Below, one piece after another: positions 10,739-27,100 of a stretch of 64,000 nucleotides of DNA (position 1 is the stretch's first letter; each line of letters opens with the position of its first letter). The position numbers and the translations under genes were made by a program. Below the pieces are notes generated by a model that had not been told where the DNA came from, searched no databases, and saw only the letters and a list, made by a program, of their open reading frames with translations. This stretch comes from Microbacterium protaetiae. GTDB lineage: Bacteria > Actinomycetota > Actinomycetes > Actinomycetales > Microbacteriaceae. The stretch is taken from assembly GCF_004135285.1 (NCBI RefSeq), contig NZ_CP035494.1, forward strand, positions 2,170,001 to 2,234,000, read 5' to 3'.

Positions 10739-12161
10739 CGACGTGTTCCTCACGCATGGCAGCAGCCCACCGCTGCGGCACCGTCCCGATAAGGTCTGCG
10801 GCATCCTCCGCACCCAGCAGACGGTCGGCGACCAGAGCGTGGGTGGCATCGGTGAAGCGGCGTCGGTAGGTCGATTCGTCCGGGAATCTCTGCCGCACCT
10901 GCTGCGCAGGCAGCGCGCGCATAGTGCCGACCAGGCCCGCGGCCAGGGTGCGGTCGACGAGCGGGGTCCAGGCCGGCCCATCTCCGGAGTCGGGATCGTC
11001 GACCGGGGTGCCATGCGGGGTGTACACGGCCAGCGGCGCGTGCACCCACGGCGAGCGGATGCCGCCCACAACGTTCCCGTCGGTGTCTCGGTGCAGCATG
11101 CGCTGCACGGGCACCTGCCCCTGCGCATACTCGAACCGGGGAGCGCGGGGCGGGGGAGTGCCATCGACCCACTCGATGAGACGATCCAGCAGCGCCCGCA
11201 TGATGAGATCGCTGCGGGCATCCGTGCGTGCTTCCCGCACTGCCGTGCCGCCGGTGTCGACGCCTGCTGCCGAGAGCGCCCGCGTATGCGTGGACCATTC
11301 TCCGGGCCTGTTCTCGATGTGGGCGGAACCGGCCAGCTGATAGAGGCGGTAGGTGTCGTCCGGATCGTCGGAGTCCTCCCGCAGCTGTGCACGGTGCGTC
11401 TCGGACTCGGTTTCGCTGAGTATCTCGAAGACGGGCACCCCGACATCTCGCACGGTGCGCCGCGGGTCGTCGTCGTCGATGGCGGCGGCGGATGCCGAGA
11501 GCGCCGGGTAGCCGGCGCTGCTGGCCCCGCCCGACGAGATGAAGACGCCCACGGCATCGACGAGGCCACCGCGGGCAACGGCGAATCGTTCGCGTGCGAA
11601 CACGCGGCAGAAGCTGCCGGTCGCCGACCAGCCCGACAGAATCACCCGCGTGCCGGGCAGCGCTGCCAGCCGCCCATCCCGCAGCGCCTCCAGCGCGTCG
11701 GAGAGGATGTCCCACTCCGTCCCACCACCCGGCACGAGCAGCGGCCGATACCGCTCGGGGTCCAGCTGTTCGCGCATGAGACGTGCGACATCCGGGTACA
11801 CCGTGACGCCCATCCAGGCGTCACCGCGGCGGACGAGGTGCGCAGCCAAACCGTCCCAGGTCAGCCCGGCGTCCATGTGTGGGTGCAGCGGCTCGACATG
11901 GGTCACTCCCGATGCGCGAGCGGAGTCGATCGGGTAGCGCACGACGATGCGGGTGCGGTAGCGGATCCAGGTGTCACGGCGACGCGGCGACCCGGGCGCG
12001 GCGGTGTCCCACAGTCCCGCCACGCCGGACAGGAGGAACTCTTCTTCGGCATATCCCACGGCAGTGGGGTCGATGCCGACTCCGCTTTCGGCGTCGTACA
12101 TCGAGCCGTACAGGGTGCGACCGCCATCAAGAGGCGTGACGATGGCGGGAGAGAGGTTCAT
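10731..12161 (-). CDS. Alpha/beta hydrolase domain protein (Abhydrolase_10-like)
   Basis: A 476-residue protein. The nucleophile elbow is GWSATG (residues 181-186 or so), and the long C-terminal half includes LAGSAHIE, which supplies the catalytic histidine. This arrangement is typical of Abhydrolase_10 (PF20091) proteins, which are poorly characterised esterases. ATG at 12161 is preferred over TTG at 12176 because GGAG lies 9 nt upstream of the ATG. There is no signal peptide. It diverges from the Opp-type importer across a 102-bp region with dyad repeats and is coupled to the CapA-like gene, so it probably processes the imported compound. Confidence 0.75.
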   Translation of the reverse strand: MNLSPAIVTPLDGGRTLYGSMYDAESGVGIDPTAVGYAEEEFLLSGVAGLWDTAAPGSPRRRDTWIRYRTRIVVRYPIDSARASGVTHVEPLHPHMDAGLTWDGLAAHLVRRGDAWMGVTVYPDVARLMREQLDPERYRPLLVPGGGTEWDILSDALEALRDGRLAALPGTRVILSGWSATGSFCRVFARERFAVARGGLVDAVGVFISSGGASSAGYPALSASAAAIDDDDPRRTVRDVGVPVFEILSETESETHRAQLREDSDDPDDTYRLYQLAGSAHIENRPGEWSTHTRALSAAGVDTGGTAVREARTDARSDLIMRALLDRLIEWVDGTPPPRAPRFEYAQGQVPVQRMLHRDTDGNVVGGIRSPWVHAPLAVYTPHGTPVDDPDSGDGPAWTPLVDRTLAAGLVGTMRALPAQQVRQRFPDESTYRRRFTDATHALVADRLLGAEDAADLIGTVPQRWAAAMREEHVDG

Positions 12162-12178
12162 CGGTGAATTCTCCAAAG

Positions 12179-12212
12179 GTTCTTGAACTTGATCAGTTTA
12201 CTTGATAAATTT
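12179..12212. promoter_or_regulatory. Divergent promoter region with two overlapping 13-bp dyads
   Basis: The stretch between the hydrolase and importer genes is AT-rich. It contains AACTTGATCAGTT (12187-12199, arms AACT/AGTT) and TTTACTTGATAAA (12197-12209, arms TTTA/TAAA), both with a central CTTGA/TTGAT word. On the reverse strand TCAAGAAC (12179-12186) recurs in similar form upstream of the second importer and upstream of the second MarR gene. A MarR-family operator is the simplest reading. Confidence 0.45.
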
Positions 12213-12263
12213 CCTGACGGGTATCCCCTGGGAAGACCTAAATATCTTGCAAAGGAGCAACAT

Positions 12264-13832
12264 ATGTGGCAAAGACGCTTGGCGCTCGCTGGGGCGATCG
12301 CCATCACCGCAGCGCTCGCCCTGTCGGCCTGCTCGGGACCGTCCGACGCACAGACGACCGACGGCGTGCGCGGCGACAAACTCAGTGTGCAGTTCACCGG
12401 TGTGCCGATCAGCCTGAACCCGGCACTGGCCGGTGGCGGCGGGAGCGTCGTATTCACGACGCTCGCGTACGATCCTCTGATCTACCTGAGCGGCGACGGC
12501 AAGCTCGTTCCGGACCTTGCCACCGAGTGGAAGTTCCGCGACGACGAGAACACGCAGCTCGAACTCATCATTCGCAAGGGCGTCACATTCCAGGATGGCG
12601 CGCAGCTGGACGCCCATGCCGTGGCGAACTCGATGAATTACTTCATGGAGGCCGGCGGCGGGCAGGTCGGATCGGTCGGCCCGATCGACACGATCACCGC
12701 CGAGGACGACGACACGGTGCTGATCACCTACAAGACGTCCTTCCCCGCCGCTCCGACGCGGCTGACGCAGGCGAACCAGCTCGGGCTCATCATCGGGCCA
12801 GAGGCTCTGAAGAACCCGGAATCGCTGCTTACCACGATGGATGGCACCGGCCCCTACACGTACAACCCCGACACGTCCGTCGCCGAATCCACGTACACGT
12901 ATGACCGCTGGGACGGCTACTGGAACCCCGACGCGCAGAAATATGAGCAGATCAGCGTCCAGGTGATCGGCGATCCCAATGCCGTCATCTCGGCCGCCAC
13001 GACCGGTCAGGTCGACTTTGCCGCCGGCGGCGCCGACACGGCGGATGCCGCTGCCTCCGCCGGGCTTTCGACGATCTCCGCGCCGTATTTCAACTACGGT
13101 CTGATCATTCTGGACCGCAAGGGCGAGATTGTTCCCGCGCTGGCCGACGAGAAGGTGCGACAGGCGATGGGGTACGCGGTTGATCGAGCGGCGATCGTGG
13201 CAGCACGCGGTGGCGATGAGTTCGCGTCCGCGATCGATCAGCTTACCGCCGATGGTGAACAAGGCCATGACGACGGCATCGGATTCGACCACGACATGCA
13301 GAAGGCGAAGAGCCTGATGGCCGAATCCGACTACCCCGACGGATTCTCGATGACACTGCTGTCGGAGAGCCCGCTGGACAACCAGTCCCTCATCACCCAG
13401 ACGGCCATCGCCCACCTCAAGGAGATCGGCGTCAAGGTCACGCTCGACGTCGCCAGCGCCATCCCCGATTTCATCCAGAAGGCGGGCAGCAAGAAGTACC
13501 CCGCGATCGTGTGGCCGATCGTCGGTGACACCGCCTCGGACTACGCGCAGACGTTCACCGGGCAGGGATTCACCAACGCATTCGGCGTGGCCGATCACGA
13601 CCTCGACGATCTGGTGGCCCAGGCCATCGTGGCCACGGGCGATGAGAAGGAGGCCCTTGAGAAGCAGGTGAGCGCCCGCTCCAACGAACTGGCATGGTTC
13701 CTGCCCTTGATCGCGACGAAGAACGTTTACTACGTGTCACCGCATGTCGCGGGTGTGCAGATCTCGCCGCTGAACCCCAACCCGATTCCCGTCGCGCCTT
13801 CGGCCGATCTGGCGTGGCGTCCGGCACAGTGA
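12264..13832 (+). CDS. ABC transporter substrate-binding lipoprotein, family 5 (peptide/nickel/opine type)
   Basis: A 522-residue extracytoplasmic binding protein with a lipoprotein signal (MWQRRLALAGAIAI..., lipobox LSAC, Cys near residue 24). The family 5 features are ISLNPALAGG, TEWKFRDD, LIIRKGVTFQDG, GTGPY and QAMGYAVDRAAI. The start is set by AAAGGAG at 12251-12257. The frame is open upstream, but no ribosome site is present there. It delivers substrate to the permease and ATPase subunits encoded next. Family 5 proteins bind oligopeptides, opines, glutathione, glycosides or metal chelates, so the ligand is open. Confidence 0.9.
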   Translation: MWQRRLALAGAIAITAALALSACSGPSDAQTTDGVRGDKLSVQFTGVPISLNPALAGGGGSVVFTTLAYDPLIYLSGDGKLVPDLATEWKFRDDENTQLELIIRKGVTFQDGAQLDAHAVANSMNYFMEAGGGQVGSVGPIDTITAEDDDTVLITYKTSFPAAPTRLTQANQLGLIIGPEALKNPESLLTTMDGTGPYTYNPDTSVAESTYTYDRWDGYWNPDAQKYEQISVQVIGDPNAVISAATTGQVDFAAGGADTADAAASAGLSTISAPYFNYGLIILDRKGEIVPALADEKVRQAMGYAVDRAAIVAARGGDEFASAIDQLTADGEQGHDDGIGFDHDMQKAKSLMAESDYPDGFSMTLLSESPLDNQSLITQTAIAHLKEIGVKVTLDVASAIPDFIQKAGSKKYPAIVWPIVGDTASDYAQTFTGQGFTNAFGVADHDLDDLVAQAIVATGDEKEALEKQVSARSNELAWFLPLIATKNVYYVSPHVAGVQISPLNPNPIPVAPSADLAWRPAQ

Positions 13833-13863: not shown

Positions 13864-14808
13864 ATGACGATGGTCGTGATCCGCCGACTACTGACGTCGA
13901 TCGTGCTGATCTTCGTCTCCACGGTGACGATCTTCGTGCTGATGTCGTTCGTCCCCGGCGATGCGGCCCAGGCGATCCTCGGAGAGAACGCCACGCCGCA
14001 GTCTGTCGCTTACCTGCGGCAGCAGCTCGGGCTGGATCAGCCGCTGTGGACGCAGTATGCAAACTGGGTGGTCGGCCTCCTGCACGGTGACCTGGGAACC
14101 TCGATCTATAGCGGGGAGCCGGTCACCCGGCTGCTGACGACGCGGTTGGGTGTGACGTTCTCGCTGATGGTCGGCTCGACCCTGGTCATCGCCGTCTTGG
14201 GCGTGATCATCGGCCTTGCCAGCGCGTTGCGCGAAGGCTGGAGCGGCCGGCTCATCGACGCCTTCTCGCTCGTCGGCTTCGCGCTGCCCAGCTTCTGGAT
14301 CGCCATCGTCCTGGTCGCCGTCTTCGCCGTGGCACTGCGATGGTTCCCCGCGACCGGGTACGTTCCCCCGGCAGCCGGAGTGGGGGCGTGGATCAACTCG
14401 CTCATCCTGCCGGTGGCGGCGATGTCGCTGAGCGGCATCACGGTCGTGGCCAAACAGATGCGGGACTCCGCCCGCACCGAGCTCGAACGCGACTACGTGC
14501 GCGTGCTGCGCTCCACTGGTGTGTCCGAGACGCGCATCGTGCTGCTGCACGTGCTGCGCAACGCCTCCATTCCGACCACCACGATCATCGGCCTGATGGC
14601 AGTCGGCGCACTCAGCGGCGCGGTCTTCATCGAGAACGTCTTCGTCCTGCCCGGACTCGGAAGCCTTGTCACGTCGGCCGCCACCCGTCACGATCTTCCC
14701 GTGATCCTCGGGGTGGGGGTCGCATTCACGGTGATGGTCATAGCGATCAACCTGGTCGTCGACCTCGCCTATTCCTCCCTCGACCCGAGAGTCCGTCAGA
14801 GCCGATGA
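13864..14808 (+). CDS. ABC transporter permease, DppB/OppB type
   Basis: A 314-residue membrane protein with about six TM segments. It has the family's N-terminal segment (RRLLTSIVLIFVSTVTIFVLMSFVPGDAA), the QLGLDQPLWTQYANWV periplasmic loop, and the EAA loop RDYVRVLRSTGVSETRIVLLHVLRNA that contacts the ATPase. It is the first permease of the Opp-type importer. Its stop overlaps the next start (ATGATG). Confidence 0.93.
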   Translation: MTMVVIRRLLTSIVLIFVSTVTIFVLMSFVPGDAAQAILGENATPQSVAYLRQQLGLDQPLWTQYANWVVGLLHGDLGTSIYSGEPVTRLLTTRLGVTFSLMVGSTLVIAVLGVIIGLASALREGWSGRLIDAFSLVGFALPSFWIAIVLVAVFAVALRWFPATGYVPPAAGVGAWINSLILPVAAMSLSGITVVAKQMRDSARTELERDYVRVLRSTGVSETRIVLLHVLRNASIPTTTIIGLMAVGALSGAVFIENVFVLPGLGSLVTSAATRHDLPVILGVGVAFTVMVIAINLVVDLAYSSLDPRVRQSR

Positions 14809-16709
14809 TGACATCCCGCGCCTACTCCGCATCCCTCACGTGCGCCCTGCTGCGCAAACCGCTCGGCGTCGTCGCTGCCGCGGTCATCGCCCTGCTCGTA
14901 CTGTCCGCGCTGCTGGCCCCGTGGCTGTCGGCGTACGATCCCACGGCGCAGGACATCGCGGCTGCGCGTCAGGGGCCGTCGGCGGCACACTGGCTTGGCA
15001 CCGACCTGCTCGGCCGCGACCTGCTCACCCGCCTCATGTACGGCGGACGCGACTCGCTGCTCGGCGTGGCCGAGGCGCTCATCGTCATGCTCATCATCGC
15101 CGTCCCCATCGGCATCCTCGCCGCGTACCTGCGCGGTACCTTCGATCGCGCCGTGCTCGCGGTGATCGACATCGTGATGTCGATTCCGGCGATCCTGATC
15201 ACCCTCGCGTCTCTGGCGATCTTCAGCAACAGCATGTTCGCGGCCATGGTCACGATCGGCATCCTCGCTTCGGCCGCCTTTGCACGCGTCTTCCGCAGCA
15301 CGGTGCTCGCGCAGCGCCAGGCGCCGTTCGTGCAGGCGGCCGTGGTGACCGGGCTTCCCACCGCGCGGATCCTCCTGCGTCACGTGCTTCCGCAGGCGCG
15401 CGGCACGATCCTGGTGCAGTCCTCGCTGTTCGCGGCGGCCACCCTCGGTATCCAGACGGGACTGTCCTTCCTCGCCTTCGGCCCGCCGCCGCCTGCACCA
15501 ACGTGGGGGGGAATGGTCGCCGAAGCGGCTTCGGCGATCCAATCGTTCCCGTGGATGTTCGTGCCGACCGGCGGCGTGATCGTGATCGCGACTCTCGCGC
15601 TTGGGCTCCTCGGCGATGCGTTGCGGGATGCCGCAGCCGAGCAGATCCGCAGGCCGCGCCGCGGCGCCGGCACGGCCCGTTCCGCGGCCTCCGCCGCTGA
15701 GGTGGACGATGCGCGCACAGCGTCGGCGGCCGATGCCGTGCTGGCCGTTCACGACCTCTCTGTGGCGTTCGGCGCCGATGAGCCGGTCACGGTGGTCGAT
15801 CGCGTCTCGTTTGACGTGCGCCGCGGCGAGATCCTCGGCATCGTCGGCGAGTCGGGCAGTGGGAAGACCGTGACGGCGCTGGCTGCCATGGGGCTGCTAG
15901 GTCGAGGCGGACGCGTCACCGGTGGCGGCATCGTCTTTGAGGGCCAGGAGATCTCGGCCGACGCGGCCGCCATGAAGGCGGTCCGCGGCAGCGGCATCGC
16001 CTACATCTCGCAGGAGCCGCTGGTCGCCCTCGACCCGTCCTTCACGGTCGGCTTCCAGCTCGTCGAGGTCGTGCGTCGGCATGACCGCTGTCCCCGTCGA
16101 CAGGCCCGGCAGCGTGCACTGGAGCTGCTGGCGGCCATGCGGCTTCCCGACCCCGAGCGCGTGTTCCGCAGTCATCCGCATCAGATCTCCGGCGGCATGG
16201 CCCAGCGCGTCGTCATCGCCAAGGCGCTGGCAGGGCGCCCGCGGCTGCTCATCGCAGATGAGCCCACCACCGCACTGGACGTCACTGTGCAGGCGGAGAT
16301 CCTGTCCCTTCTGAGCAGCATCCGGGAAGACACCGGGATGTCCATCATCCTGGTCACACACGACTGGGGGGTCGTGGCCCAGACCTGTGATCGCACTCTT
16401 GTCATGTACGCCGGTCAGGTCGTGGAGGAAGCCATGGTCTCCGACCTCATCCGCTCCCCGCGCCACCCGTACACCCGGGGACTGCTCGGCTCCGACCCGC
16501 ACGGGGCGCGACGCGGTGACATCCTGCCGACGATCGGTGGCGTCGTGCCCCCGCCGGGAGCATGGCCGCACGGATGTCGCTTCGCGGACCGCTGCTTCCT
16601 GGCACGACCGGAATGCCGGGCGATGCCGATTGCGATGACCGAGGTCGGCGACGACCGCGTGAGCCGCTGCATCCGCGTCGACGAGCTGGTAGAGGCGGCC
16701 ACAGCATGA
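14805..16709 (+). CDS. Fused ABC permease-ATPase (DppC/OppC + DppD/OppD)
   Basis: A 634-residue fusion. Residues about 1-280 are a DppC-type permease (LGTDLLGRDLLTRLMYGGRDSL, EAA loop FVQAAVVTGLPTARILLRHVLPQA, end LGLLGDALRD). A 25-residue Ala/Arg-rich linker follows. Residues about 305-634 are the ATPase, with Walker A GESGSGKT, signature ISGGMAQRV, Walker B LLIADEPTTALD and the H-loop VTHDWG. The C-terminal Cys-containing oligopeptide-type tail is CRFADRCFLARPEC. Such fusions occur in actinobacterial peptide importers and keep subunits at a 1:1 ratio. The start overlaps the upstream stop. Confidence 0.93.
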   Translation: MMTSRAYSASLTCALLRKPLGVVAAAVIALLVLSALLAPWLSAYDPTAQDIAAARQGPSAAHWLGTDLLGRDLLTRLMYGGRDSLLGVAEALIVMLIIAVPIGILAAYLRGTFDRAVLAVIDIVMSIPAILITLASLAIFSNSMFAAMVTIGILASAAFARVFRSTVLAQRQAPFVQAAVVTGLPTARILLRHVLPQARGTILVQSSLFAAATLGIQTGLSFLAFGPPPPAPTWGGMVAEAASAIQSFPWMFVPTGGVIVIATLALGLLGDALRDAAAEQIRRPRRGAGTARSAASAAEVDDARTASAADAVLAVHDLSVAFGADEPVTVVDRVSFDVRRGEILGIVGESGSGKTVTALAAMGLLGRGGRVTGGGIVFEGQEISADAAAMKAVRGSGIAYISQEPLVALDPSFTVGFQLVEVVRRHDRCPRRQARQRALELLAAMRLPDPERVFRSHPHQISGGMAQRVVIAKALAGRPRLLIADEPTTALDVTVQAEILSLLSSIREDTGMSIILVTHDWGVVAQTCDRTLVMYAGQVVEEAMVSDLIRSPRHPYTRGLLGSDPHGARRGDILPTIGGVVPPPGAWPHGCRFADRCFLARPECRAMPIAMTEVGDDRVSRCIRVDELVEAATA

Positions 16710-17512
16710 GCGCCACGACGCCCGTCCTCGAGGTCCGCGACATCAGTGTCGCCTACGGTGCGGGGCGGAAGCGATCGACCGCCGTGGCCGACGTGGGCTT
16801 CACGATCGAACGGGGTCGCACTCTGGGATTGGTCGGCGAGTCCGGCTCGGGCAAGACGACGATCGGGATGGCGGTGCTCGGACTTATCCCCCTGTCCGCA
16901 GGGGAGATCCGTTTCCAAGGCGAGTCGGTGCATGACCTGCCGCGTCGTCGCCGGCGCCGGCTGGGCAAAGTCCGGCAGGTCGTCTTCCAAGACCCGTACA
17001 GTTCGCTCAACCCGCTGCGCACCATCGGCGCGAGCCTTGTCGAGCCGGCGCGCTTCCACGGCGCCACTGCCGCGGCAGCGCGGGAGCGCGCCTGCGAGCT
17101 CATGCACACGGTCGGCCTGGACGACTCGGTCCTGGAACGCTATCCGGCGCAGTTTTCGGGTGGGCAGCGGCAGCGCATCGCGATAGCACGTTCGCTCATG
17201 ACCGACCCTGAGTTCATCGTGTGCGACGAGCCGGTGAGCGCTCTGGATCTCTCCGTGCAGGCGGACGTGATGAATCTGCTGACGACATTGCAGCGCGACC
17301 TCGGCCTGAGCCTGCTGTTCATTTCGCACGATCTGGCGATAGTGCGCCAGATCTCCGATGACGTCGTCGTGCTGCGTGCAGGTGCGGTCGTCGAGGCTGC
17401 TCCCACCGAGGAGCTCTTCGACGCTCCGCGTGAGGAATACACCCGCTCGCTGTTGAACGCCGTCCCGCGGCCCCGCGCGGCCGACACCGAAATCGAGAGA
17501 GAGGCCCGCTGA
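16706..17512 (+). CDS. ABC transporter ATP-binding protein, DppF/OppF type
   Basis: A 268-residue ATPase with Walker A GESGSGKTT, Q-loop FQDPYSSLNP, signature FSGGQRQRIAIARSL, Walker B FIVCDEPVSALD and switch His in ISHDLAIV. It is the second ATPase of the Opp-type importer. ATG overlaps the preceding stop as ATGA, and its own stop overlaps the following hydrolase start by one base, so the importer and hydrolase are one translationally coupled operon. It is slightly short for the family because it lacks the long C-terminal domain. Confidence 0.93.
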   Translation: MSATTPVLEVRDISVAYGAGRKRSTAVADVGFTIERGRTLGLVGESGSGKTTIGMAVLGLIPLSAGEIRFQGESVHDLPRRRRRRLGKVRQVVFQDPYSSLNPLRTIGASLVEPARFHGATAAAARERACELMHTVGLDDSVLERYPAQFSGGQRQRIAIARSLMTDPEFIVCDEPVSALDLSVQADVMNLLTTLQRDLGLSLLFISHDLAIVRQISDDVVVLRAGAVVEAAPTEELFDAPREEYTRSLLNAVPRPRAADTEIEREAR

Positions 17513-18387
17513 TGCCCCAGATCGCCATCGACGACGAGGTCTCGCTGTGGTACGACGAGTTCCCCGGCCACGGCATGCCCGTCCTCTCCAGCGCCGCATC
17601 GTTCGAGTCGGGCGGCTACCCGGAGATCCTCGCCCGGCCGCCGTTGGCCCGGCCGGTGTACCAGATCCAGGCTCGCGGATGGGGGCGCTCCACACACCTG
17701 GCCGCCGATCCCGTCGACGGCTGGCTGGACACGTGGGCGGACGATGTGTGCCGCGTGGCCGATCGGCTCGGGATCGAGAAGTTCATCTACACCGGCGTCT
17801 CGCATGGCGGCGGCATCGGATGGCATCTGGGCCGACGCCATCCGGAACGACTGGCGGCTCTGATCTCAGTCGTCGGTGCGCCCCATGACCGTGCCGGCGG
17901 CACGGCCAGTTCCGCAGGACGTGCAGCCGTCATCGCCGGTCGTACGGACGCCGAGGTGGTGCGACGTCAGTTCGAGATCCTCGCCGGACACACCGATGAT
18001 CCCCAGCGTGCCGCGGCCCGCGAGCACATGTATCGGCGGGTCGCTGAGAACTTCGCCGCACAGACCGAGGAGGAGGCCCGCATAAACCAGGGCAAACCGT
18101 TCCCGGAAGCGGTCACCGACCAGCAGCTGGCCGACGTGCTCGCCGCGATCCGCGTGCCGGTGCTCATCCTCGGGGCCCTGCGCGACGGCGTGATCTCACC
18201 GACCGCCTCCCTGCGCGCGGCGGTGAGCGTCCCCGGGTCCAAGACCGTCTTGTGGGAGGACGAGGGCCACATGATCGCCGGAGAGAGTCCGGCCCGTCTC
18301 GCCCGCGAGGCGGCACTGTTCCTCGCCGAGCTCGACGGTACGGCCGAACCGCGCGACGGTGCCGTCTCGGAGGCGTACCGGCCATGA
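17512..18387 (+). CDS. Alpha/beta hydrolase
   Basis: A 291-residue alpha/beta-hydrolase-fold enzyme. The nucleophile Ser97 lies in GVSHGGG (G-x-S-x-G). An acid is likely in LGALRDGV (near residue 225), and the catalytic histidine is in EDEGHMIAGE. The oxyanion region near QARGWGRS resembles the HG-type loops of epoxide hydrolase, haloperoxidase and ester hydrolase branches. No signal peptide, so it acts in the cytosol. It is encoded inside the importer operon and most likely cleaves an ester, lactone or amide in the imported compound. The exact reaction is not readable from sequence. Confidence 0.85.
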   Translation: MPQIAIDDEVSLWYDEFPGHGMPVLSSAASFESGGYPEILARPPLARPVYQIQARGWGRSTHLAADPVDGWLDTWADDVCRVADRLGIEKFIYTGVSHGGGIGWHLGRRHPERLAALISVVGAPHDRAGGTASSAGRAAVIAGRTDAEVVRRQFEILAGHTDDPQRAAAREHMYRRVAENFAAQTEEEARINQGKPFPEAVTDQQLADVLAAIRVPVLILGALRDGVISPTASLRAAVSVPGSKTVLWEDEGHMIAGESPARLAREAALFLAELDGTAEPRDGAVSEAYRP

Positions 18388-18953
18388 ACGAGCAGCTGCC
18401 CCCGCGTGCCACGAGTCTTGCCACCGACGAGCTTTACTATATCCTCAACCGCCTCTCCCGGTCGATGAACCGGGCTGCCGACGACATCGCGTGGTGTCAC
18501 GGCGTCACGCTCGCGGAGTTCAATGTCCTGCTCGTGCTTGCCGAGGGTGTGCCGCTGTCGTCTGCGCAACTGGCCCGACGAGCGTTCGTCACCCCGCAGT
18601 CGAGCCACCAAGTGGTCTCCGCGCTCTTGGACCGGGAGCTTATCGAGACAGTGCGCCACCCCACCGATCGTCGGGTCAAGCTCACCCAGCTCACCGACGA
18701 AGGATGGTCGGTGCTCGACGCCTCGCGCGCGGCGCTGCGCGAGATGCAGGCGCGCGCGATGGCCGATCTGCCCACGGCCGATCGTGAACGCCTACCCGCC
18801 GTCCTCGGAATCCTCGCCGAGACTCTGCTGGGCGGCTGGTTCGGAGATCCCGAAGCCGCCGAGGCAGCCCTTGCCCGGCGCGCACCGCGCGCCACGCTCG
18901 CGCGAACCCCCGACATCCGTCCCCTCCCCGCACCTGATCGCAAGACGAATTGA
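18384..18953 (+). CDS. MarR family transcriptional regulator (paralogue of the 26.5-kb gene)
   Basis: A 189-residue winged-helix regulator with AEFNVLLVLAEGVPLSSAQLARRAFV as the recognition region and the wing HPTDRRVKLTQLTDEG. It is the last gene of the importer/hydrolase operon (ATGA overlap). It is clearly homologous over its length to the MarR protein at 26537-27100, sharing LSxAQxARRxFV, HPTxRRVxLxxLTDxGW and GGxFGD. The two genes bracket the second half of the island. MarR proteins of this kind usually repress their own operon and release DNA on binding an aromatic or CoA-linked ligand. Confidence 0.88.
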   Translation: MNEQLPPRATSLATDELYYILNRLSRSMNRAADDIAWCHGVTLAEFNVLLVLAEGVPLSSAQLARRAFVTPQSSHQVVSALLDRELIETVRHPTDRRVKLTQLTDEGWSVLDASRAALREMQARAMADLPTADRERLPAVLGILAETLLGGWFGDPEAAEAALARRAPRATLARTPDIRPLPAPDRKTN

Positions 18954-19003: not shown

Positions 19004-19027
19004 TTGAACTTCACAAATATCAAGAAG
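19004..19027. promoter_or_regulatory. Putative operator upstream of the second importer operon
   Basis: TTGAACTT (19004-19011) and TATCAAGAAG (from 19018) form a TTGA...TCAA inverted pair 12 bp apart in an otherwise GC-rich stretch. The same words (TTGAACTT, TCAAGAA) occur in the divergent promoter near 12180. Shared control by one of the MarR proteins is inferred. Confidence 0.35.
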
Positions 19028-19089
19028 CATGAGATTATCGAGGGTGCCTTCACATGAAGGCATTTCCTCACAACGATGTGGAGTAGGCC

Positions 19090-20002: not shown

Positions 20003-20917
20003 ATGACCATGCCGATCATCACGCCGCCGCGCACCGACGGCGTCGTGGACGTCGCCGACGCGCGTCGCCGGTTCCACCCGTGGCGACTGGTGATCGGCGT
20101 GGTCCTGGCGCTGATCGTCGTCCGGTTGGCGCTCTTCCTCGTCACCAACGAGCGCTTTGAATGGCCGGTGGTGGGCGAGTATCTCTTCAACCCCTCAGTG
20201 CTGTTGGGGCTAGTGATGTCGGTCCTGCTGACCGCCGTCGGCATGATCCTCGGATCGTTGTTGGGTACAGTGCTGGCTGCCGGGCAACTGGCCGCGTTCC
20301 CCCCGGTACGGTGGGCGTGCGTGGCGTTCGTGGGGGTCTTCCGCGCCGTCCCGCCGCTGGTTCAGCTGATCTTCTGGTACAACCTCGCGTACCTCATCCC
20401 CAAGCTCGCAATCGGTGTCCCCTTCGGGCCGGAGCTGTTCAGCTGGCCGACCAACGACGTGATCACGCCTCTGACGGCCGCTGTCATCGGTCTCTCGCTG
20501 CACGAAGCCGCTTACATGGCAGAGATCATCCGCGCCGGGATCTCGTCGGTGGATCAGGGTCAGCGGGATGCCTCCAAGGCGATGGGTTTCTCGAGCTCGC
20601 ACGCCTTCTCGCGGGTCGTGCTGCCGCAGGCCATGCGAGTGATCATTCCCCCGGCGGGATCGCAGGTGATAGCGCTGCTGAAGGGCACGTCACTGGTCAG
20701 CGTGATAGCGATGGGTGACCTACTGCACTCGGTGCAGGTCATCTACAACCGCACCTACGAAGTGGTGCCGATGCTCATCGTCGCCGTCATCTGGTACCTC
20801 GTCGTCGTCGCGGCTCTGACCGTCGTGCAGCGTCAGGTCGAACGGCGCTTCAGCCGGGGGCTGGTCCGCACGGCGTCGGTCCGTAAGCCCGTTCAGCGTC
20901 TGGAGGCAGCCCGATGA
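20003..20917 (+). CDS. ABC transporter permease, polar amino-acid (HisMQ) type
   Basis: A 304-residue permease with an extended cytoplasmic N-terminus, one extra TM segment, then the HisM-type core. It has RAVPPLVQLIFWYN and the EAA loop EIIRAGISSVDQGQRDASKAMGFSSSHAFSRVVLPQAMR. The AGGGAG at 19990-19996 serves ATG at 20003. Only one permease gene is present, so the transporter channel is probably a homodimer. It overlaps the ATPase gene by ATGA. Confidence 0.92.
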   Translation: MTMPIITPPRTDGVVDVADARRRFHPWRLVIGVVLALIVVRLALFLVTNERFEWPVVGEYLFNPSVLLGLVMSVLLTAVGMILGSLLGTVLAAGQLAAFPPVRWACVAFVGVFRAVPPLVQLIFWYNLAYLIPKLAIGVPFGPELFSWPTNDVITPLTAAVIGLSLHEAAYMAEIIRAGISSVDQGQRDASKAMGFSSSHAFSRVVLPQAMRVIIPPAGSQVIALLKGTSLVSVIAMGDLLHSVQVIYNRTYEVVPMLIVAVIWYLVVVAALTVVQRQVERRFSRGLVRTASVRKPVQRLEAAR

Positions 20918-21717
20918 ACCCGCAAGCGACGACACCCGTTCTGGAGGTCGTGGGACTGCGAAAGGCCTTCGGTGATCAGGTGGCGCTCGATGGCATCGAC
21001 TTCACCGTCAACGAGTCCGAGGTCGTCGCGATCCTCGGCCCTTCCGGTTCGGGCAAGTCGACGCTCGTACGCTGTGTGGATCTGCTCGAGCCCGTCGACG
21101 GTGGGGCGATGTATCTGGACGGGCACCTGCTCGGGTTCGAAACGCATCGCGGTCACCTGCGCCCTATGTCGGATGCCGACATCCAGCGTCAGCGACGACG
21201 GATGGGCATGGTATTCCAGCAGTTCAATCTCTTCCCGCACTGGACTGTCCTGCGTAATATCACCGAAGCCCCGATCAGGGTCCACAAGGTGCCGGCGGCG
21301 CAGGCACGTGCTCGCGCGATGGAACTGCTCGAGCGGGTCGGGCTGGCCGACAAGGCGCAGGCGCACCCCCGGCAGCTATCCGGTGGACAGCAGCAGCGCG
21401 TCGCGATAGCCCGCGCTGTCGCGGCGAATCCGCGCATCCTGCTTTTCGACGAGCCGACGAGTTCGCTCGATCCCGAACTCGTCAATGAGGTGCTGCAGGT
21501 GATGAAGGACCTGGCCACCACCGGTATGACCATGGTCGTCGTCACCCACGAGATGGAGTTCGCGCGCAATGTCGCGGACCGTTGCGTCTTCATGGCAGAC
21601 GGGTACGTGATCGAAGACCGTCCGGCGCAGGAGTTCTTCCGGTCGCCGCGGTCGACGCGGCTGCAGAGCTTCCTGCAACGCACATCCCCACCCCCACGCG
21701 ACACGGTGCCACAGTGA
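20914..21717 (+). CDS. ABC transporter ATP-binding protein, polar amino-acid (GlnQ) type
   Basis: A 267-residue ATPase with Walker A GPSGSGKST, Q-loop VFQQFNLFPH, signature [15 protein letters not shown], Walker B ILLFDEPTSSLDP and H-loop VTHEMEFA. It completes the family 3 importer (binding protein, one permease, one ATPase). An 80-bp gap with an AAGGAG site separates it from the CoA-transferase gene in the same direction. Confidence 0.93.
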   Translation: MNPQATTPVLEVVGLRKAFGDQVALDGIDFTVNESEVVAILGPSGSGKSTLVRCVDLLEPVDGGAMYLDGHLLGFETHRGHLRPMSDADIQRQRRRMGMVFQQFNLFPHWTVLRNITEAPIRVHKVPAAQARARAMELLERVGLADKAQAHPRQLSGGQQQRVAIARAVAANPRILLFDEPTSSLDPELVNEVLQVMKDLATTGMTMVVVTHEMEFARNVADRCVFMADGYVIEDRPAQEFFRSPRSTRLQSFLQRTSPPPRDTVPQ

Positions 21718-21796: not shown

Positions 21797-23044
21797 ATGA
21801 GCGAGAACAAGGGACCACTTCAGGGGAAGGTCATCCTCGACCTGACGACGGCGCTGGCCGGCCCTTACGCGACGCTCCTGCTGGCCGGCTTGGGCGCGCG
21901 GGTGATCAAGATCGAGAATCCCACTCGCGGCGGTGACTCATCGCGGAACAACTCGCCGTACGTGACGGCGGACGGCCTGAGCGTCCGGCGGTCGGATCCT
22001 CGCGATATGTCGGTGTCGATGATGGTGCGCGGCCGCAACAAGGAGAGCATGACGCTCAATCTCAAGCATCCTGCCAGTCGCGACATCTTCCTCGACCTGG
22101 CGCGTCAGGCCGACATCATCGTCGAGAACTACAGTGCCGGCGTCACGAAGCGACTGGGAATCGACTACGACGCCGTTCGCTCCGTCAATTCGAAGCTGAT
22201 CTACACCTCGATCAGCGGATTCGGTGCGCAAGGGGTCTCCGTCGGCGATGGAAAGGCCATGGACACCATCATCCAGGCGCTCAGCGGCGTCATGATGACG
22301 GCGGGCGAGCCCGGCGACCCGCCCGTGCGGTTCGGGCTGCCCGTCGGCGATCTCGTCGCGCCGATGTTCGCGGTGATCGGCACCCTCGCCGCCGTCATCC
22401 ACGCCGACGAGACAGGGGAAGGACAGCATGTCGACGTCTCGATGCTCGGAAGCCTCACCTCGCTCGTCGCGTGCGAGCCGTTCGATGCATTGGAATCGGT
22501 CGGGATCCCGCTGCGCACGGGCGCGTATGTGCCCCGGCTCGCGCCGTTCGGCACCTTCCGCTCGGCCGATGGCTGGTTCGCCATCTGCGCGCCCACGGAT
22601 TCTTTCGCCGACGGCGCTCTGCGCGCCATCGACCGCGCAGATCTCGCCGGCGACGCCAAGTACGCCTCGCGGGACGCGCGCGTGCACAACGCCGACGAAC
22701 TGCACGATCTGATCGCGCAGTGGGCCGCCTCCAGGCCGATGGACGAGGTGCTGCACACCTTCGAGGCCCATGGCGTGCCCGTCGCGCCGGTGCGTGACAC
22801 CGCAGACGCCGTGCGGGACGAGCTCGTGCTCCAGCGCCACGAGGTGGTGCCGATCGTCCACCCGCAATTCGGCCACATCGACGGACTCTACGGCAGCGGG
22901 CTGCCCGTGACCTTCTCGCGCAGTGGCGCTGATCTCTCCCAACCCGCACCGGCGTTGGGCGAGCACACCGACACCGTCCTGGCTGAGATGCTCGGGCTCG
23001 AGGCGCCGGCGATCGACCGCCTGCGCACGGACGGTGTGCTGTGA
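21797..23044 (+). CDS. Family III CoA-transferase (CaiB/BaiF)
   Basis: A 415-residue CaiB/BaiF-type enzyme. It has the N-terminal CoA-binding pattern LDLTTALAGPYATLLLAGLGARVIKIENP, the block RGRNKESMTLNLKHP, and Asp156 in KAMDTIIQALSG, aligned with the aspartate that forms the acyl anhydride in formyl-CoA transferase. Members move CoA between carboxylic acids (oxalate, carnitine, phenyllactate, bile acids). The site GGAAGGAGC at 21782-21790 fixes the start. Its stop overlaps the next start (GTGA), tying it to two dehydratase-like genes. This is the order expected of an FldA-FldB-FldC-like CoA-dependent dehydration route, but no activator ATPase gene is nearby. Confidence 0.9.
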   Translation: MSENKGPLQGKVILDLTTALAGPYATLLLAGLGARVIKIENPTRGGDSSRNNSPYVTADGLSVRRSDPRDMSVSMMVRGRNKESMTLNLKHPASRDIFLDLARQADIIVENYSAGVTKRLGIDYDAVRSVNSKLIYTSISGFGAQGVSVGDGKAMDTIIQALSGVMMTAGEPGDPPVRFGLPVGDLVAPMFAVIGTLAAVIHADETGEGQHVDVSMLGSLTSLVACEPFDALESVGIPLRTGAYVPRLAPFGTFRSADGWFAICAPTDSFADGALRAIDRADLAGDAKYASRDARVHNADELHDLIAQWAASRPMDEVLHTFEAHGVPVAPVRDTADAVRDELVLQRHEVVPIVHPQFGHIDGLYGSGLPVTFSRSGADLSQPAPALGEHTDTVLAEMLGLEAPAIDRLRTDGVL

Positions 23045-24081
23045 CGACGACCATCGGGATCGTCGGCAACGATGTGCCGCGTCAGCTCGTGATGGCGGCC
23101 GATGCCGTTCCCCAGCGCCTCACCGGAACATGGGACGGTCGGCTCGATGCGCGGGCATCCGCGTTGCTCGGCGCCGTGGATCCGGTGGTCACCGGCATCC
23201 TGACCGAAATACTGGAGGGGTGCCATGACGACCTCGCCGGTCTCGTGGTGTGCAACGACGCACAGGCGCATCTGCGTCTGTTCTACGTGCTGCGGATGCT
23301 GCGTGGCGAGGGACTTCCGCCGGTCCACCTGCTCGACCTGCCTCGCCTCGACAGCCCCGCAGCCCGCCGCTTCGCCGCGCATCAGTTGACGGCCCTGTCG
23401 GAGTTCTGCGCCGGGCTGTCGGGGACATCGCCCACGGCCTCCCGTCTGCGAGCCGCGGCTGCGGCCGAGTCGCAGGTGGGAGCGGCGCTGGTCCGGTTGC
23501 GTGCCCGTCGCCGCGCGGCGTCGGCCGTGCCCGGCGCCGACGCGCTCTCGGCGATCATCGCCGCCGGCGCATTGCCGGTGACGGATGCCGTGGCCGCCCT
23601 CGACGCCGTGGTCGATCCCGCGCCCTCCCAGTTGGTGCGCGTGCACGTGACGGGAAGCTCGCATCCGGATCCAACGATGTATGCCGCGCTGGAGGCGCAC
23701 GGACTCGTCGTGGTCAGCGATGACCACTCCACTGGCGACCAGGCGTGGATCGGCGAGTCCGTCGATTCCGGCGAGCTCGATGACGTCTGCGAGGGACTCG
23801 TCGAACTGCACTTCGCGCGGACAGCGGATTCGGCCGGCGCATCGATAGCGGCGCGCGCCGCGCTTACGCGTGCGAGCGCACAGGCCGGCGGCGCACGATT
23901 CGCCCTTTCACTGATCCGCGAAGACGAGGAAGCCCCCGCCTGGGACTTCGCGGCCGTCAGCGACGAGCTCGCAACCGCCGGCATCCCCGCACTGTCGCGG
24001 CGATGGATCCGCCGCGGGCAGTCGACGACGGTGGCTGCCGAGGTTGCGGCAAAGATCCTTGACGAACGGATCGCGTCATGA
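23041..24081 (+). CDS. 2-hydroxyacyl-CoA dehydratase-like subunit with degenerate Fe-S ligands
   Basis: A 346-residue protein with GTG start. Family features of HgdB/FldC/BcrC-type proteins are LAGLVVCNDAQAHLRLFYVLRML and the following PPVHLLDLPRLDSPAARRFAAHQLTAL. Also visible are LVVVSDDHSTGDQAW (226-236) and the C-terminal AWDFAAVSDELATAGIPAL. In redox-active relatives three cysteines hold a [4Fe-4S] cluster. Here only the one at Cys71 (VVCND) is kept, while the sites expected near 47 and 295 lack cysteine. The fold is probably retained, but the radical dehydration mechanism probably is not. It is coupled to both neighbours by 4-bp overlaps. Its true reaction is unknown. Confidence 0.7.
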   Translation: MTTTIGIVGNDVPRQLVMAADAVPQRLTGTWDGRLDARASALLGAVDPVVTGILTEILEGCHDDLAGLVVCNDAQAHLRLFYVLRMLRGEGLPPVHLLDLPRLDSPAARRFAAHQLTALSEFCAGLSGTSPTASRLRAAAAAESQVGAALVRLRARRRAASAVPGADALSAIIAAGALPVTDAVAALDAVVDPAPSQLVRVHVTGSSHPDPTMYAALEAHGLVVVSDDHSTGDQAWIGESVDSGELDDVCEGLVELHFARTADSAGASIAARAALTRASAQAGGARFALSLIREDEEAPAWDFAAVSDELATAGIPALSRRWIRRGQSTTVAAEVAAKILDERIAS

Positions 24082-25328
24082 GCGCCGCCAGGCTCGCCAG
24101 CGCGGTCGCGGCGACGTCGTACCAGCGCGAGTGGTTCCAACGACTGCGAGAGCGGGCCGCCGGCGGAGCGCCCACGGCCTTCGTCAACGCGGATGCTCCG
24201 CACGAGGTCTTCCGCGCGCTCGACATACCGTACGTCGTCAACCAGTGGTGGGCGTCGGTGATCGCCGCGAAGCGCACGGGGCCTGCGGCGCTGTCGCAGT
24301 TGACGGCGCACGGCCTGCCAGATGACAGTCGCCAGTACGACGCGCTGGCACTGGGGGCGCAAGAGCTCGATGAGGCTCGTGCGCCGTGGGGCGGGCTGCC
24401 CTCGCCCACCTTCGCGGTGTCGGAGCGCAGCGGTGATGTCAGTCACAAGATCTTCGAGCTGTGGGGCCGGCGGGCGGGGACCGAGACCTTCCTCCTCAAT
24501 CGCACAGCGGCCGTCCCCGCACCCGACGGGTGGTGGGATCTCGTTCCGGAACGCTGGGAGGAGGTCTTCGGCGCAGAGCGTATCGACCTGCTCGAGGCGG
24601 AGATCCGTCAGCTCATCGGGGTGCTGGAGGATCGCACCGGACGGACGCTGGAACACGAGGCCCTCGTCGAGGTCATGGCGCTGGCGAACGAACAGGCGGA
24701 GTGGAACCAGCGCACCCGCGCACTCATCGCCACGGCCCGGCCCACTCCGATAGCCGTGACGGACTCCATCCCCAGTGTGATGGTCCCGCAGTGGCACCGC
24801 GGCACGCCGTGGGCGGTGGAGGCGGCTCGGCGCCTTCACGACGAGGTCGCAGAGCGGATCGAGGGTGGCGTCGCCGTGCACGCCGGTGAACGTCGCCGTC
24901 TGATGTGGATCGGGCGCGGGCTGTGGTCGGATCTGGAGATGTATCGGTCGTTCCAGGACGAGTTCGGCGCCGTCTTCGTCTGGTCAATGTACCTCGCCAT
25001 CGCCGCGGATGGGTATCTGCGTCGCGGCGTCGACCCGGTGCGCACACTGGCCGCACGGTTCGTCGGACTCACGGATCTACTGTACGTGCCGCCGATGTCG
25101 TCGAGCTGGTATGTGAAGGAGGCCCTCTCGCACGGTATCGACGGTGTCGTGCATCTTGTCGCCGACGACACCCCGGGCGCCGCGTTCATTAGCGAGGCAC
25201 TTGAGGACCAGAACATCCCGGTTCTCGAGATCGTGGCGAACAACGCCGACTCACGCTCGACCGAGCGTGCTCGCGTGCACGAGCGGATCGCAGAGTTCAT
25301 CCGCTCCCGCGTCCCCGCCCGCGACTGA
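24078..25328 (+). CDS. 2-hydroxyacyl-CoA dehydratase-like subunit lacking all cysteines
   Basis: A 416-residue protein matching the HgdA/FldB half of the family: PHEVFRALDIPYVVNQWWASVIAAKR, then LPDDSRQYDALALG where enzymes with a cluster have a Cys-Ser-Tyr type motif (here Ser84), and SPTFAVSERSGDVSHKIFELWGRRAGTETFLLNRTA where Cys residues usually sit (here Ser/Arg/Gly). No cysteine occurs anywhere in the chain, so it cannot bind a cysteine-ligated Fe-S cluster. Later blocks such as RLMWIGRGLWSDLEMY and GVVHLVADDTPGA keep the family pattern. With the preceding gene it likely forms a heterodimer. Function unknown: it could be a non-redox CoA-ester binder or a new type of lyase. Confidence 0.7.
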   Translation: MSAARLASAVAATSYQREWFQRLRERAAGGAPTAFVNADAPHEVFRALDIPYVVNQWWASVIAAKRTGPAALSQLTAHGLPDDSRQYDALALGAQELDEARAPWGGLPSPTFAVSERSGDVSHKIFELWGRRAGTETFLLNRTAAVPAPDGWWDLVPERWEEVFGAERIDLLEAEIRQLIGVLEDRTGRTLEHEALVEVMALANEQAEWNQRTRALIATARPTPIAVTDSIPSVMVPQWHRGTPWAVEAARRLHDEVAERIEGGVAVHAGERRRLMWIGRGLWSDLEMYRSFQDEFGAVFVWSMYLAIAADGYLRRGVDPVRTLAARFVGLTDLLYVPPMSSSWYVKEALSHGIDGVVHLVADDTPGAAFISEALEDQNIPVLEIVANNADSRSTERARVHERIAEFIRSRVPARD

Positions 25329-25332
25329 GGGC

Positions 25333-26535
25333 ATGACGCGTCTGAGTGCGCTCACCCCGTTCGGCAACGCGCGTTTCACTCTCTACTTCACCGGCCAGGT
25401 TGTGTCAAACACCGGCACTTGGTTTCAGAACCTCGCGCTCTCGCTCGTGGTGCTGGAAGCCACGGGAAGCGCACAGTCGCTCAGCGGCGTGACAGTAGCG
25501 CAGTTCCTGCCCCTCCTGCTGCTCGGCGTGCCGGCCGGGCGACTGGCCGACCGGCTGCGGCCGCGAACCATCCTGCTGTTCACCTCGACACTGTCGGCCG
25601 TGGTGGTCTGCGGGCTGGCTGCCATCGTCTCGTCGGCCCAGCCGGCGATCTGGGCCGTGCTCGCCCTCGTGTTCGCGCTTGGTACCGTCAACACCTTCGA
25701 CCGGGTGGCCGCTCAGGCCATCATCTTCGAGATCGTCGGAACGAGCGGGCTGTCGCGTGCGGTGTCGATCAGTACGATAGCGCTCGCCGCGGCGCGTTCC
25801 ATCGGCCCGGGGCTGGCAGGAATAGCCTTCGCAGTTCTCGGACCGGCGGTGTGCATGCTGCTGAATGCGGCATCCTTCGTCATCGTCTTCATGCTGATTC
25901 TGCTCATCCGGCCCCGAATCCTGCACCCGCGACCGGTCGTGGATCGCCAGGACAGGACGGGAGTGCGGGCCATGCTGCGGCATCGGTCGCTGGTCACGCT
26001 GCTGGTGGTCAACTCGACCGTCGCGCTTCTCGCCCTAAATCTCATGCTGGTGCTCACCTCGACGGTCACGTTGACATACCGCGCGGACGCCACGAGCGTC
26101 GGCGCCGTGCACGCCTTGAATGCGCTGGGCGCTATCGTCGGCGGCGTGCTCGCAGCAGTGCCGCCGACAGCGTCGGTGCGCTCTCTCGCAGTGGGGTGCC
26201 TCGTGCTCGGCGGAGCGCTGGGCGTCAGCGCCGCAGCCCCGACGCTGGCGGTCTTCCTGGTGCTCGGCCCGGTCCTCGGGCTTGGCGTCGGGCTCTATCA
26301 AGGCCTGCTCAACGCCAGTGCGCAAGCGAGTGTGCCGCCGGAGCAGCTGGGGCGGACGATGTCGCTCGTGACGGTCGGCAACTACGGTGTCGCCCCGATC
26401 GGCGCGGTCGTCATGGGAGCTGTGATCGATGCGACGTCTGGCCGTGTCGCGCTGGCAATCGGCGGATGTGCGGCATTGTGCATGGCCGTCTTCGTGTGGG
26501 TGCGCACCCGGGCGCGGGCGACTGTGACGGAGTGA
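25333..26535 (+). CDS. MFS transporter (MFS_3/EntS-like exporter)
   Basis: A 400-residue protein with about 12 TM segments, starting LTPFGNARFTLYFTGQVVSNTGTWFQNLALSLVVLEATGS, the hallmark of the EntS/MdtH-like exporter branch. Motif A is GRLADRLRPRTILL. It lies 4 bp after the dehydratase-like genes, in the same operon, and ends 2 bp before the convergent MarR gene. It probably exports a product or a toxic intermediate of the island. Substrate unknown. Confidence 0.88.
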   Translation: MTRLSALTPFGNARFTLYFTGQVVSNTGTWFQNLALSLVVLEATGSAQSLSGVTVAQFLPLLLLGVPAGRLADRLRPRTILLFTSTLSAVVVCGLAAIVSSAQPAIWAVLALVFALGTVNTFDRVAAQAIIFEIVGTSGLSRAVSISTIALAAARSIGPGLAGIAFAVLGPAVCMLLNAASFVIVFMLILLIRPRILHPRPVVDRQDRTGVRAMLRHRSLVTLLVVNSTVALLALNLMLVLTSTVTLTYRADATSVGAVHALNALGAIVGGVLAAVPPTASVRSLAVGCLVLGGALGVSAAAPTLAVFLVLGPVLGLGVGLYQGLLNASAQASVPPEQLGRTMSLVTVGNYGVAPIGAVVMGAVIDATSGRVALAIGGCAALCMAVFVWVRTRARATVTE

Positions 26536-26536
26536 G

Positions 26537-27100
26537 TCAGGATGCCGAGAGCCGGTTGCCGTGCGCCGGACGGCGCCGCAGCGCCACCGCCTCGGCTTCG
26601 GCGTCGGCATCGCCGAAATATCCGCCCGCGAGCGCCTCGGCCGCGCGAGTGAGCACCTCAGAGAGCGTCTGACCCTCTCCTGCCGACTCTATAGCGTCTG
26701 ACAACCGCGCTTCGCGCTCGACGAGATCCCGCGTGCAGATTGACAGGGCGTCCCACCCGGCGTCGGTCAGCCGGACCAGGCGTACTCGTCTGTTGGTGGG
26801 GTGCTCGGTCTTCTCGATGAGCCCGGCGCGCAGCATCTCCTCGGAGACCACGTGGGCAGCCTGCGAACTGACGAAGGTACGACGCGCGACCTGCGCGTTC
26901 GAGAGCGGGAGACCCTCGCCCAGCACCTGCAGAATGAGGAACTGCGGCATGGTGATGCCCAGTGACAGGGCCGTGTTCTCCGCGGCGCGGTTCAGGGCCC
27001 GCGCGAGCCGGTAGGTGGTGTAGTTGAGGCGGTCGGTCGCCGGAGCTCCTCGTGGGTCGCGCGCACTCTCATCCACGATTTCCACCCTACCGTTGACCAC
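26537..27100 (-). CDS. MarR family transcriptional regulator (paralogue of the 18.4-kb gene)
   Basis: A 187-residue winged-helix protein: ITMPQFLILQVLGEGLPLSNAQVARRTFV recognition region and wing HPTNRRVRLVRLTDAGWDAL. The GTG at 27100 is the longest start. GTG at 27076, behind AGGGTGG, is equally plausible and would remove 8 residues. It faces the island's MFS gene and is homologous to the MarR protein at 18384-18953 throughout. A perfect 17-bp palindrome lies 28 bp upstream, consistent with autoregulation. Confidence 0.85.
   Translation of the reverse strand: MVNGRVEIVDESARDPRGAPATDRLNYTTYRLARALNRAAENTALSLGITMPQFLILQVLGEGLPLSNAQVARRTFVSSQAAHVVSEEMLRAGLIEKTEHPTNRRVRLVRLTDAGWDALSICTRDLVEREARLSDAIESAGEGQTLSEVLTRAAEALAGGYFGDADAEAEAVALRRRPAHGNRLSAS

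Follow-up and report, generated by a model that had tools for sequence, protein, structure and literature searches.

The window studied here is a stretch of 64,000 nucleotides from Microbacterium protaetiae, a soil-type bacterium whose 3.79-Mb genome consists of a single contig. Within it, at 12161-27100, lies an island of 14 tightly packed genes that combines two ATP-binding cassette (ABC) importers with a class III coenzyme A (CoA) transferase, here called CoT, and two proteins of family PF06050, H1 and H2, which are the main subject of this analysis. The features of the island and its immediate surroundings are given below in order of position; the 14 genes are those from SBP5 to MarR2.

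9602..10738, minus strand: CapA-like protein (PGA_cap; PF09587, E 5.2e-55)
10731..12161, minus strand: alpha/beta hydrolase of the Abhydrolase_10 type, the second hydrolase (PF20091, E 8e-85)
12192..12206, no strand: operator-like repeat ATCAA-N5-TTGAT with one mismatch, in the gap that separates the hydrolase gene from the divergently transcribed SBP5 gene
12279..13832, plus strand: SBP5, solute-binding protein of a peptide-type ABC importer (PF00496; an open reading frame start at 12183 is also open)
13864..14808, plus strand: DppB-type permease (PF00528, PF19300)
14805..16709, plus strand: DppC-type permease fused to a DppD-type ATPase (PF12911, PF00528, PF00005 and PF08352 in one open reading frame)
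16706..17512, plus strand: DppF-type ATPase (PF00005, PF08352)
17512..18387, plus strand: alpha/beta hydrolase (PF00561)
18384..18953, plus strand: MarR1, regulator of the peptide-importer half (PF12802; 82% identical to the MarR of genome G140)
19019..19033, no strand: weak operator-like repeat with two mismatches, before SBP3
19090..19989, plus strand: SBP3, solute-binding protein of a polar amino-acid-type importer (PF00497)
20003..20917, plus strand: HisM-type permease (PF00528)
20914..21717, plus strand: HisP-type ATPase (PF00005)
21797..23044, plus strand: CoT, class III CoA-transferase (PF02515, 354 bits against a cut-off of 23.3)
23041..24081, plus strand: H1, PF06050 subunit related to BzdN and HadC (family and BzdN profile matches, model, ligand columns)
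24078..25328, plus strand: H2, PF06050 subunit related to HadB, BzdO and MbdO (family and MbdO profile matches, model, ligand columns)
25333..26535, plus strand: major facilitator superfamily (MFS) transporter (PF05977, PF07690)
26537..27100, minus strand: MarR2, regulator of the amino-acid-importer half (PF12802; 90% identical to the MarR of M. elymi)
27130..27144, no strand: perfect operator-like repeat ATCAA-N5-TTGAT, before MarR2

Ten of the 12 gaps between plus-strand neighbours measure −4 to +31 bases, including 4-base overlaps at CoT/H1 and H1/H2, and the remaining two are of 79 bases before the CoA-transferase and 172 bases before SBP3 (136 if the ATG at 19090 is taken as the start). 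The sequence-only reading of this DNA had described 14 packed genes with two importers, a CoA-transferase, a dehydratase-like pair, an MFS transporter and two MarR regulators, all of which stands; it had also counted in two hydrolases and the CapA-like protein, whereas the CapA-like gene and the second hydrolase lie outside the island (9602-12161) and a single hydrolase lies inside. The order CoA-transferase, PF06050, PF06050, which it had likened to FldABC, is borne out by the family matches. The DppC-DppD fusion has 634 residues, and fused homologs are present in other peptide-importer loci as well.

PF06050 enzymes are the textbook case of oxygen-sensitive radical chemistry. H1 and H2 are the sole PF06050 matches in the genome, scoring 73.0 and 115.2 bits, respectively, above the curated cut-off of 28.4. 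Profile searches against solved structures relate H1 to BzdN (E 1.5e-24), the double-cubane protein, MbdN and HadC, and H2 to MbdO (E 1.5e-18), BzdO and HadB. The AlphaFold models, taken as confirmation of the fold only, agree: H1 has a mean predicted local distance difference test score of 94.0 and a query-normalised template modelling score of 0.86 to BzdN, and H2 has 87.8 and 0.79–0.83 to MbdO, BzdO and HadB. The earlier concern that the two dehydratase-like genes might prove unrelated to PF06050 is, therefore, dispelled.

For comparison, a scan of genome contigs gave 139 relatives of H2, and the best 80 of the 139 were kept as loci. The ligand positions, where BzdNO and HadBC carry the cysteines that bind the iron-sulfur cluster, were read from alignments with these proteins. 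H2 has no cysteine at all and carries R85, G119 and T365 at these positions, and cysteine occurs in columns 85, 119 and 365 in none of 81 rows (the 80 loci plus the window). The four cysteines of H1 all lie away from its aligned ligand positions (columns 47/50, 74 and 296). Among 75 rows of H1 (74 loci plus the window), column 47 is always Asp; Asp also stands at column 296 in 74 rows, where the window has Glu. At column 74, there are 48 rows with Cys, 25 with Ser and one with Thr, and the window has Ala, which means that some relatives retain one of three ligands and the window none. Moreover, no PF01869 activator ATPase scores above the family cut-off in the genome, in which three weak sub-threshold matches were found, none of them near the island. 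A radical, activator-dependent mechanism is unlikely because the ligand cysteines are lost and no activator passes the cut-off, and an ordinary FldABC system with such a mechanism was rejected on these two grounds. The lack of iron-sulfur ligands and of a recognisable activator had both been noticed in the sequence-only reading, correctly. H1-H2 is a cluster-free branch of PF06050. Two aligned ligand positions of H1 have turned acidic, the invariant D47 and D296 (Glu in the window); beside the invariant D73, they might hold a divalent metal replacing the cluster, an idea that belongs to the bolder account given below. In public records, the pair is called 2-hydroxyacyl-CoA dehydratases, one of the names being (R)-phenyllactyl-CoA dehydratase alpha subunit; from such names, automated pathway prediction could wrongly infer a phenyllactate-type radical metabolism.

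The branch does not stand alone. The record titles of all 80 loci name actinobacteria, and homologs of CoT are found near 79 of them, of CapA near 71, of HisM near 68, of SBP3 near 66 and of the MFS transporter near 23; H1 has a homolog near 76 (any match) or 74 (by cluster). The common order is SBP3-HisM-HisP-CapA-CoT-H1-H2. The order in L054-L056 is SBP5-DppB-DppCD-DppF-hydrolase-CapA-CoT-H1-H2, and therefore the peptide-type importer substitutes for the amino-acid-type one. Within the genus, H2 is present in 15 of 149 Microbacterium genomes, and a CapA homolog at E<1e-70 accompanies it in 15/15 of these vs 1/134 of the others. A phylum-wide sample of 396 genomes gave a match of some kind in 39 and one at E<1e-100 in only three, the window's included. 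The module is widespread but sparse. Its order recurs in other genera and its genes go together within Microbacterium, which rules out the chance grouping that the sequence-only reading had allowed for. No description of the module was found in the open-access literature searched, as judged from titles and the beginnings of abstracts, most subscription papers being outside this search. Two variants are worth recording. L044 and L050 (6480-7658) have a cytochrome P450-type gene where CapA normally stands, immediately upstream of the CoA-transferase, the gene of L050 being below the P450-type family cut-offs tested. In genome G148, the two importer versions occur together in the adjacent stretches L142 and L143, along with further importers, several CapA-like genes, PaaX-type regulators, an MmgE/PrpD-like gene and a single H2, possibly as a larger super-island.

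The comparison with close relatives bears on why the window has two importers. In genome G140 (L137), a CapA-hydrolase pair is followed by the divergent genes SBP5-DppB-DppCD-DppF-hydrolase-MarR-CoT-H1-H2; the eight genes up to MarR are 62–87% identical to those of the window, CoT is 65% and H2 51% identical. SBP3, HisM, CoT, H2, MFS and MarR of M. elymi (record L021, with which L144 from genome G091 of the same genus agrees fully across the island) are 80–92% identical to the right part of the window's island, and the M. elymi CapA, 56% identical to the window's, sits between importer and CoT. In L021/L144, HisP is called with 132 residues and H2 with 650–658, lengths that suggest frameshifts or sequence errors. 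Genome G098 (L138, 7486-9070) has the same chromosomal site in decayed form, with only a CapA fragment (83% identical to the window's) and an H2 fragment left; the latter is 81% identical to the H2 of G140 and 50% to that of the window. In G098 as in the window, the site is bordered by arabinofuranosidase and oxidase genes at one end and by epimerase and arabinose genes at the other. Among the compared loci, G098 alone shares both flanks, and as it holds remnants, an empty site was not found. The window's island is thus a composite: its left half matches G140 and its right half M. elymi, and each of these two module versions brings an importer and a MarR regulator of its own. On the simplest reading of these three genomes, the site may once have carried the peptide-importer version, whose CoT-H1-H2 would have been replaced in the window lineage by that of the amino-acid-importer version, the own CapA of which is missing from the window. 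This origin takes the place of the earlier idea of one pathway equipped with two importers by design. In the window, the island is flanked by an arabinofuranosidase/oxidase pair (6799-8340) and an araD-, araB-, araA-type set (28112-31913), and it may interrupt an arabinose region.

CapA belongs to the core of the module but is displaced in the window from its usual place between importer and CoA-transferase; its presence within or near the core in 71/80 loci rules out an unrelated capsule gene. Its only strong solved match is MslH (E 1.7e-25), a lasso-peptide epimerase whose metal and catalytic residues are given in PMC10406935. Seven of these eight positions are kept in CapA (the equivalents of E44, N87, H88, D91, H259 and H295 by alignment, D11 by motif only), and Gly stands at the position of the metal ligand H261. 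The kept positions may be common across its family. Membership among MslH-type epimerases was rejected: the PGA_cap domain is present, but H261 is replaced and the score to the MslH family is 107.8 bits for a cut-off of 700. CapA could be an epimerase or a hydrolase. The PF20091 hydrolase adjoins CapA also in G140, with 62% identity to the window's, and the hydrolase at 17512..18387 has homologs near 6/80 loci, upstream of CapA or the CoA-transferase. As for CoT, the closest named CoA-transferase families act on small dicarboxylates, with scores far below their cut-offs. A CapA paralog, 39% identical to the window's, lies at 8431-9534 of L141 beside another ABC importer and two P450-type genes in genome G110, which has no H2; the cluster 42 CapA paralogs in L057, L064 and L076 are also beside other ABC importers. 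The pairing of CapA with importers may be a wider theme.

The regulators give a first indication of the compounds involved. HcaR is the best solved relative of both, at E 3.4e-15 for MarR2 (next match 4.1e-7) and at E 2.3e-9 for MarR1, for which the next match is near-equal (4.2e-9). PMC5487221 and PMC4737184 describe HcaR and CouR as regulators of hydroxycinnamate genes that respond to hydroxycinnamoyl-CoA esters, HcaR apparently binding the free acids as well. The HcaR-like MarR repressors of the island probably act through the candidate ATCAA-N5-TTGAT sites. Many relatives have copies with up to one mismatch at a similar place before SBP3. At that threshold, the window and 30 relatives together have 38 copies, of which 36 are intergenic or no more than 30 bases away from an intergenic stretch (86,905 positions) and two lie elsewhere (579,874 positions), a count for which the pattern was derived from the window, the relatives are not independent and M. 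elymi enters twice (L021, L144).

Hydroxycinnamate catabolism is also suggested by the neighbourhood of the loci. Recurrent neighbours among the 80 are Amidohydro_2 proteins (15), short-chain dehydrogenases/reductases (SDR, 15), CoA ligases (8), MaoC (7), enoyl-CoA hydratase-type proteins (4) and aldehyde dehydrogenases (3), together with several hydrolases. The one hydratase-type neighbour tested, in L068, scores 447.7 bits and so passes the 276-bit cut-off for p-hydroxycinnamoyl-CoA hydratase/lyases. The amidohydrolase, SDR, MaoC and ligase near these loci resemble the cou gene set of Rhodococcus, whose CouO belongs to the amidohydrolase superfamily according to PMC4737184. Under a rule accepting an amidohydrolase, a hydratase/lyase, or an SDR with a ligase or MaoC, hydroxycinnamate-type genes accompany 22/80 loci, and in L075, L089 and L095 they run head-to-tail with the core. 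As background, the amidohydrolase has 55 matches from 246 genomes of the class. Within Microbacterium, a CouO-type amidohydrolase is found in 15/15 H2-bearing genomes vs 42/134 others (Fisher p 1.5e-7), and an intradiol dioxygenase at E<1e-50 in 15/15 vs 48/134 (p 8e-7), both uncorrected for relatedness; the CouO-type gene continues to go with H2 when only genomes that have the dioxygenase are compared (p 0.003). The hydratase/lyase NF006588 exceeds its cut-off in 2/149 genomes, one of them H2-bearing. The phenylacetate pathway, a partner hinted at by the PaaX-type regulators found near 51/80 loci, was rejected, as its marker PF05138 is in 10/15 H2-bearing genomes vs 89/134 others (p 0.6). The window genome itself has a cou-like cluster at about 987.5-993.2 kb (MarR, SDR, amidohydrolase, acyl-CoA dehydrogenase, MaoC and ligase) and an intradiol dioxygenase match at 967.6 kb; the likeness of the cou-type set in the own-genome stretch L170 to RHA1 proteins is judged by family and gene content only. 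No copy of ATCAA-N5-TTGAT with up to one mismatch was found in the cou-like cluster, and a CouR-type box has one weak match there and one in the window.

Gene families, folds, ligand loss, a conserved order, co-inheritance, the composite make-up and the statistical link to hydroxycinnamate genes are what the analysis establishes. We see in them a conserved actinobacterial module made of an importer, a CapA-like metallo-enzyme with or without esterases, a class III CoA-transferase and an iron-sulfur-free PF06050 pair. We think that it probably feeds the breakdown of plant phenolics. Our preferred, still tentative, account is that of a catabolic module in which CoT and the cluster-free pair yield a hydroxycinnamoyl-type CoA ester that then enters a cou-like pathway. 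The ABC importer would take up a small acid or conjugate, the hydrolases, CapA or both would release or epimerise it, CoT would form the CoA thioester of the released acid, and H1-H2 would convert this thioester into the hydroxycinnamoyl-type ester by non-radical chemistry. The cou-like side-chain pathway and intradiol ring cleavage, encoded elsewhere in the genome, would follow, under HcaR-like repressors bound at the ATCAA-N5-TTGAT sites. We infer the direction of flux, the substrate, the product, the ligand of the regulators and every catalytic step, as was also the case for the chain of import, hydrolysis, CoA transfer and non-radical conversion put forward in the sequence-only reading. 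FldABC makes cinnamoyl-CoA from phenyllactate, and for this reason an FldABC-like gene order beside hydroxycinnamate genes is suggestive. The exchange of CoT-H1-H2 between module versions at one site also counts in favour. An aryl-lactate-like chemistry is backed only indirectly, by the fact that hydroxycinnamate genes occur around related loci and elsewhere in the genomes concerned. A bolder form of this account, which we regard as doubtful, is that PF06050 has here been remodelled into an enzyme that tolerates oxygen, has no cluster and makes cinnamoyl-type CoA esters from aryl-lactoyl-CoA (or a beta-substituted equivalent) without a radical; the module would then be an aerobic counterpart of the gut FldABC pathway, with importer cassettes that can be exchanged and that supply plant phenolic conjugates, rosmarinate-type esters for example.

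Several points weigh against the hydroxycinnamoyl-CoA account. As many as 58/80 loci have no hydroxycinnamate gene within the stretch compared. The genus association is uncorrected for relatedness, and at the default threshold the dioxygenase contrast shrinks to 15/15 vs 94/134 (p 0.007), the 1e-50 limit having been chosen after the list was seen. The regulators do not all agree, since the 51 loci mentioned have PaaX-type proteins instead of this MarR type and phenylacetate is unassociated. With up to two mismatches, the whole window holds seven repeats for 5.92 expected, a number reached in 40/100 shuffles, which is chance level; the case for an operator rests on where the copies with a single mismatch or none are placed and on these copies themselves. 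Hydroxycinnamate conjugates are not an obvious cargo for a polar amino-acid importer, and radical-free dehydration of a 2-hydroxyacyl-CoA is difficult chemistry, elimination at the beta carbon being easier.

This last point leads to the main rival, in which H1-H2 works on the beta (benzylic) carbon as a lyase or hydratase. CoT would make, for instance, a 3-amino- or 3-hydroxy-3-arylpropionyl-CoA, from which the pair would remove ammonia or water, and the importer would carry an aromatic beta-amino acid or its conjugates. In its product, this rival is a special case of our best reading, with another substrate and other chemistry. The polar amino-acid-type importer near 66–68 of the 80 loci suits it, such an elimination needs no cluster and the hydroxycinnamate-type neighbours fit the same product; however, no beta-amino-acid gene was seen and the peptide-type and other importers are less specific, and we consider it unlikely. 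A division of labour can also be envisaged, in which the core handles the non-aromatic partner of a phenolic conjugate (a hydroxy acid, as in tartrate, quinate or malate esters) and cou-type genes take the released hydroxycinnamate. Esterase-like and tannase-like hydrolases near many loci, a DUF6351-type gene at 28/80 and the small dicarboxylates of the nearest named CoA-transferase families, far below cut-off as these are, speak for it; the HcaR-like regulators and the head-to-tail order with cou-type genes rather suggest a shared CoA ester, and this division seems distinctly improbable to us. The association might, on the other hand, just reflect the clustering of catabolic genes in metabolically versatile genomes, the module serving some acid that is not a phenylpropanoid. 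The PaaX-type regulators, the P450s and other importers in some loci and the uncorrected relatedness agree with this, but phenylacetate, a second aromatic pathway, is unassociated in the same genomes and the CouO-type gene tracks H2 within dioxygenase-positive ones, and we also hold it to be an unlikely explanation. Finally, an ordinary FldABC-type radical dehydratase borrowing its activator from elsewhere would explain the alike gene order and folds and the public phenyllactyl-CoA dehydratase name. The cysteine-free ligand columns of all H2 rows, the single H1 column of three with Cys (in the 48 rows noted, not the window's) and the lack of an activator above cut-off make it extremely improbable.

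In our opinion, a conserved PF06050 branch without ligands or activator in presumably aerobic actinobacteria suggests a different job for this fold, and the evidence allows testable proposals for the class of substrate, the ligand of the regulators and the operator. With FldABC/FldI, HadABC/HadI and HgdAB/HgdC, the island shares a CoA-transferase followed by two PF06050 subunits, with predicted folds that match HadB and HadC, but it lacks the ligand cysteines and an activator over the cut-off, and it adds a CapA-like protein and ABC importers. The class I benzoyl-CoA reductases BzdNO and MbdNO are the nearest solved relatives by profile (H1 to BzdN, H2 to MbdO), whereas the cluster ligands are missing from the island and the score to the BzdO NCBIfam family, 35.3 bits, is below the cut-off of 448.6. 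MslH shares with CapA the PGA_cap domain and seven of eight positions, H261 being Gly in CapA. With the cou/CouR system of Rhodococcus and HcaR of Acinetobacter, the likeness lies in the cou-type genes near 22/80 loci and in the own genome and in HcaR as the best match of both MarRs. The CouR box has the same 5-base spacer as the island repeat and different repeat arms. According to PMC4737184, the Rhodococcus cou pathway starts with a CoA ligase, and in its place the island has a CoA-transferase and a PF06050 pair.

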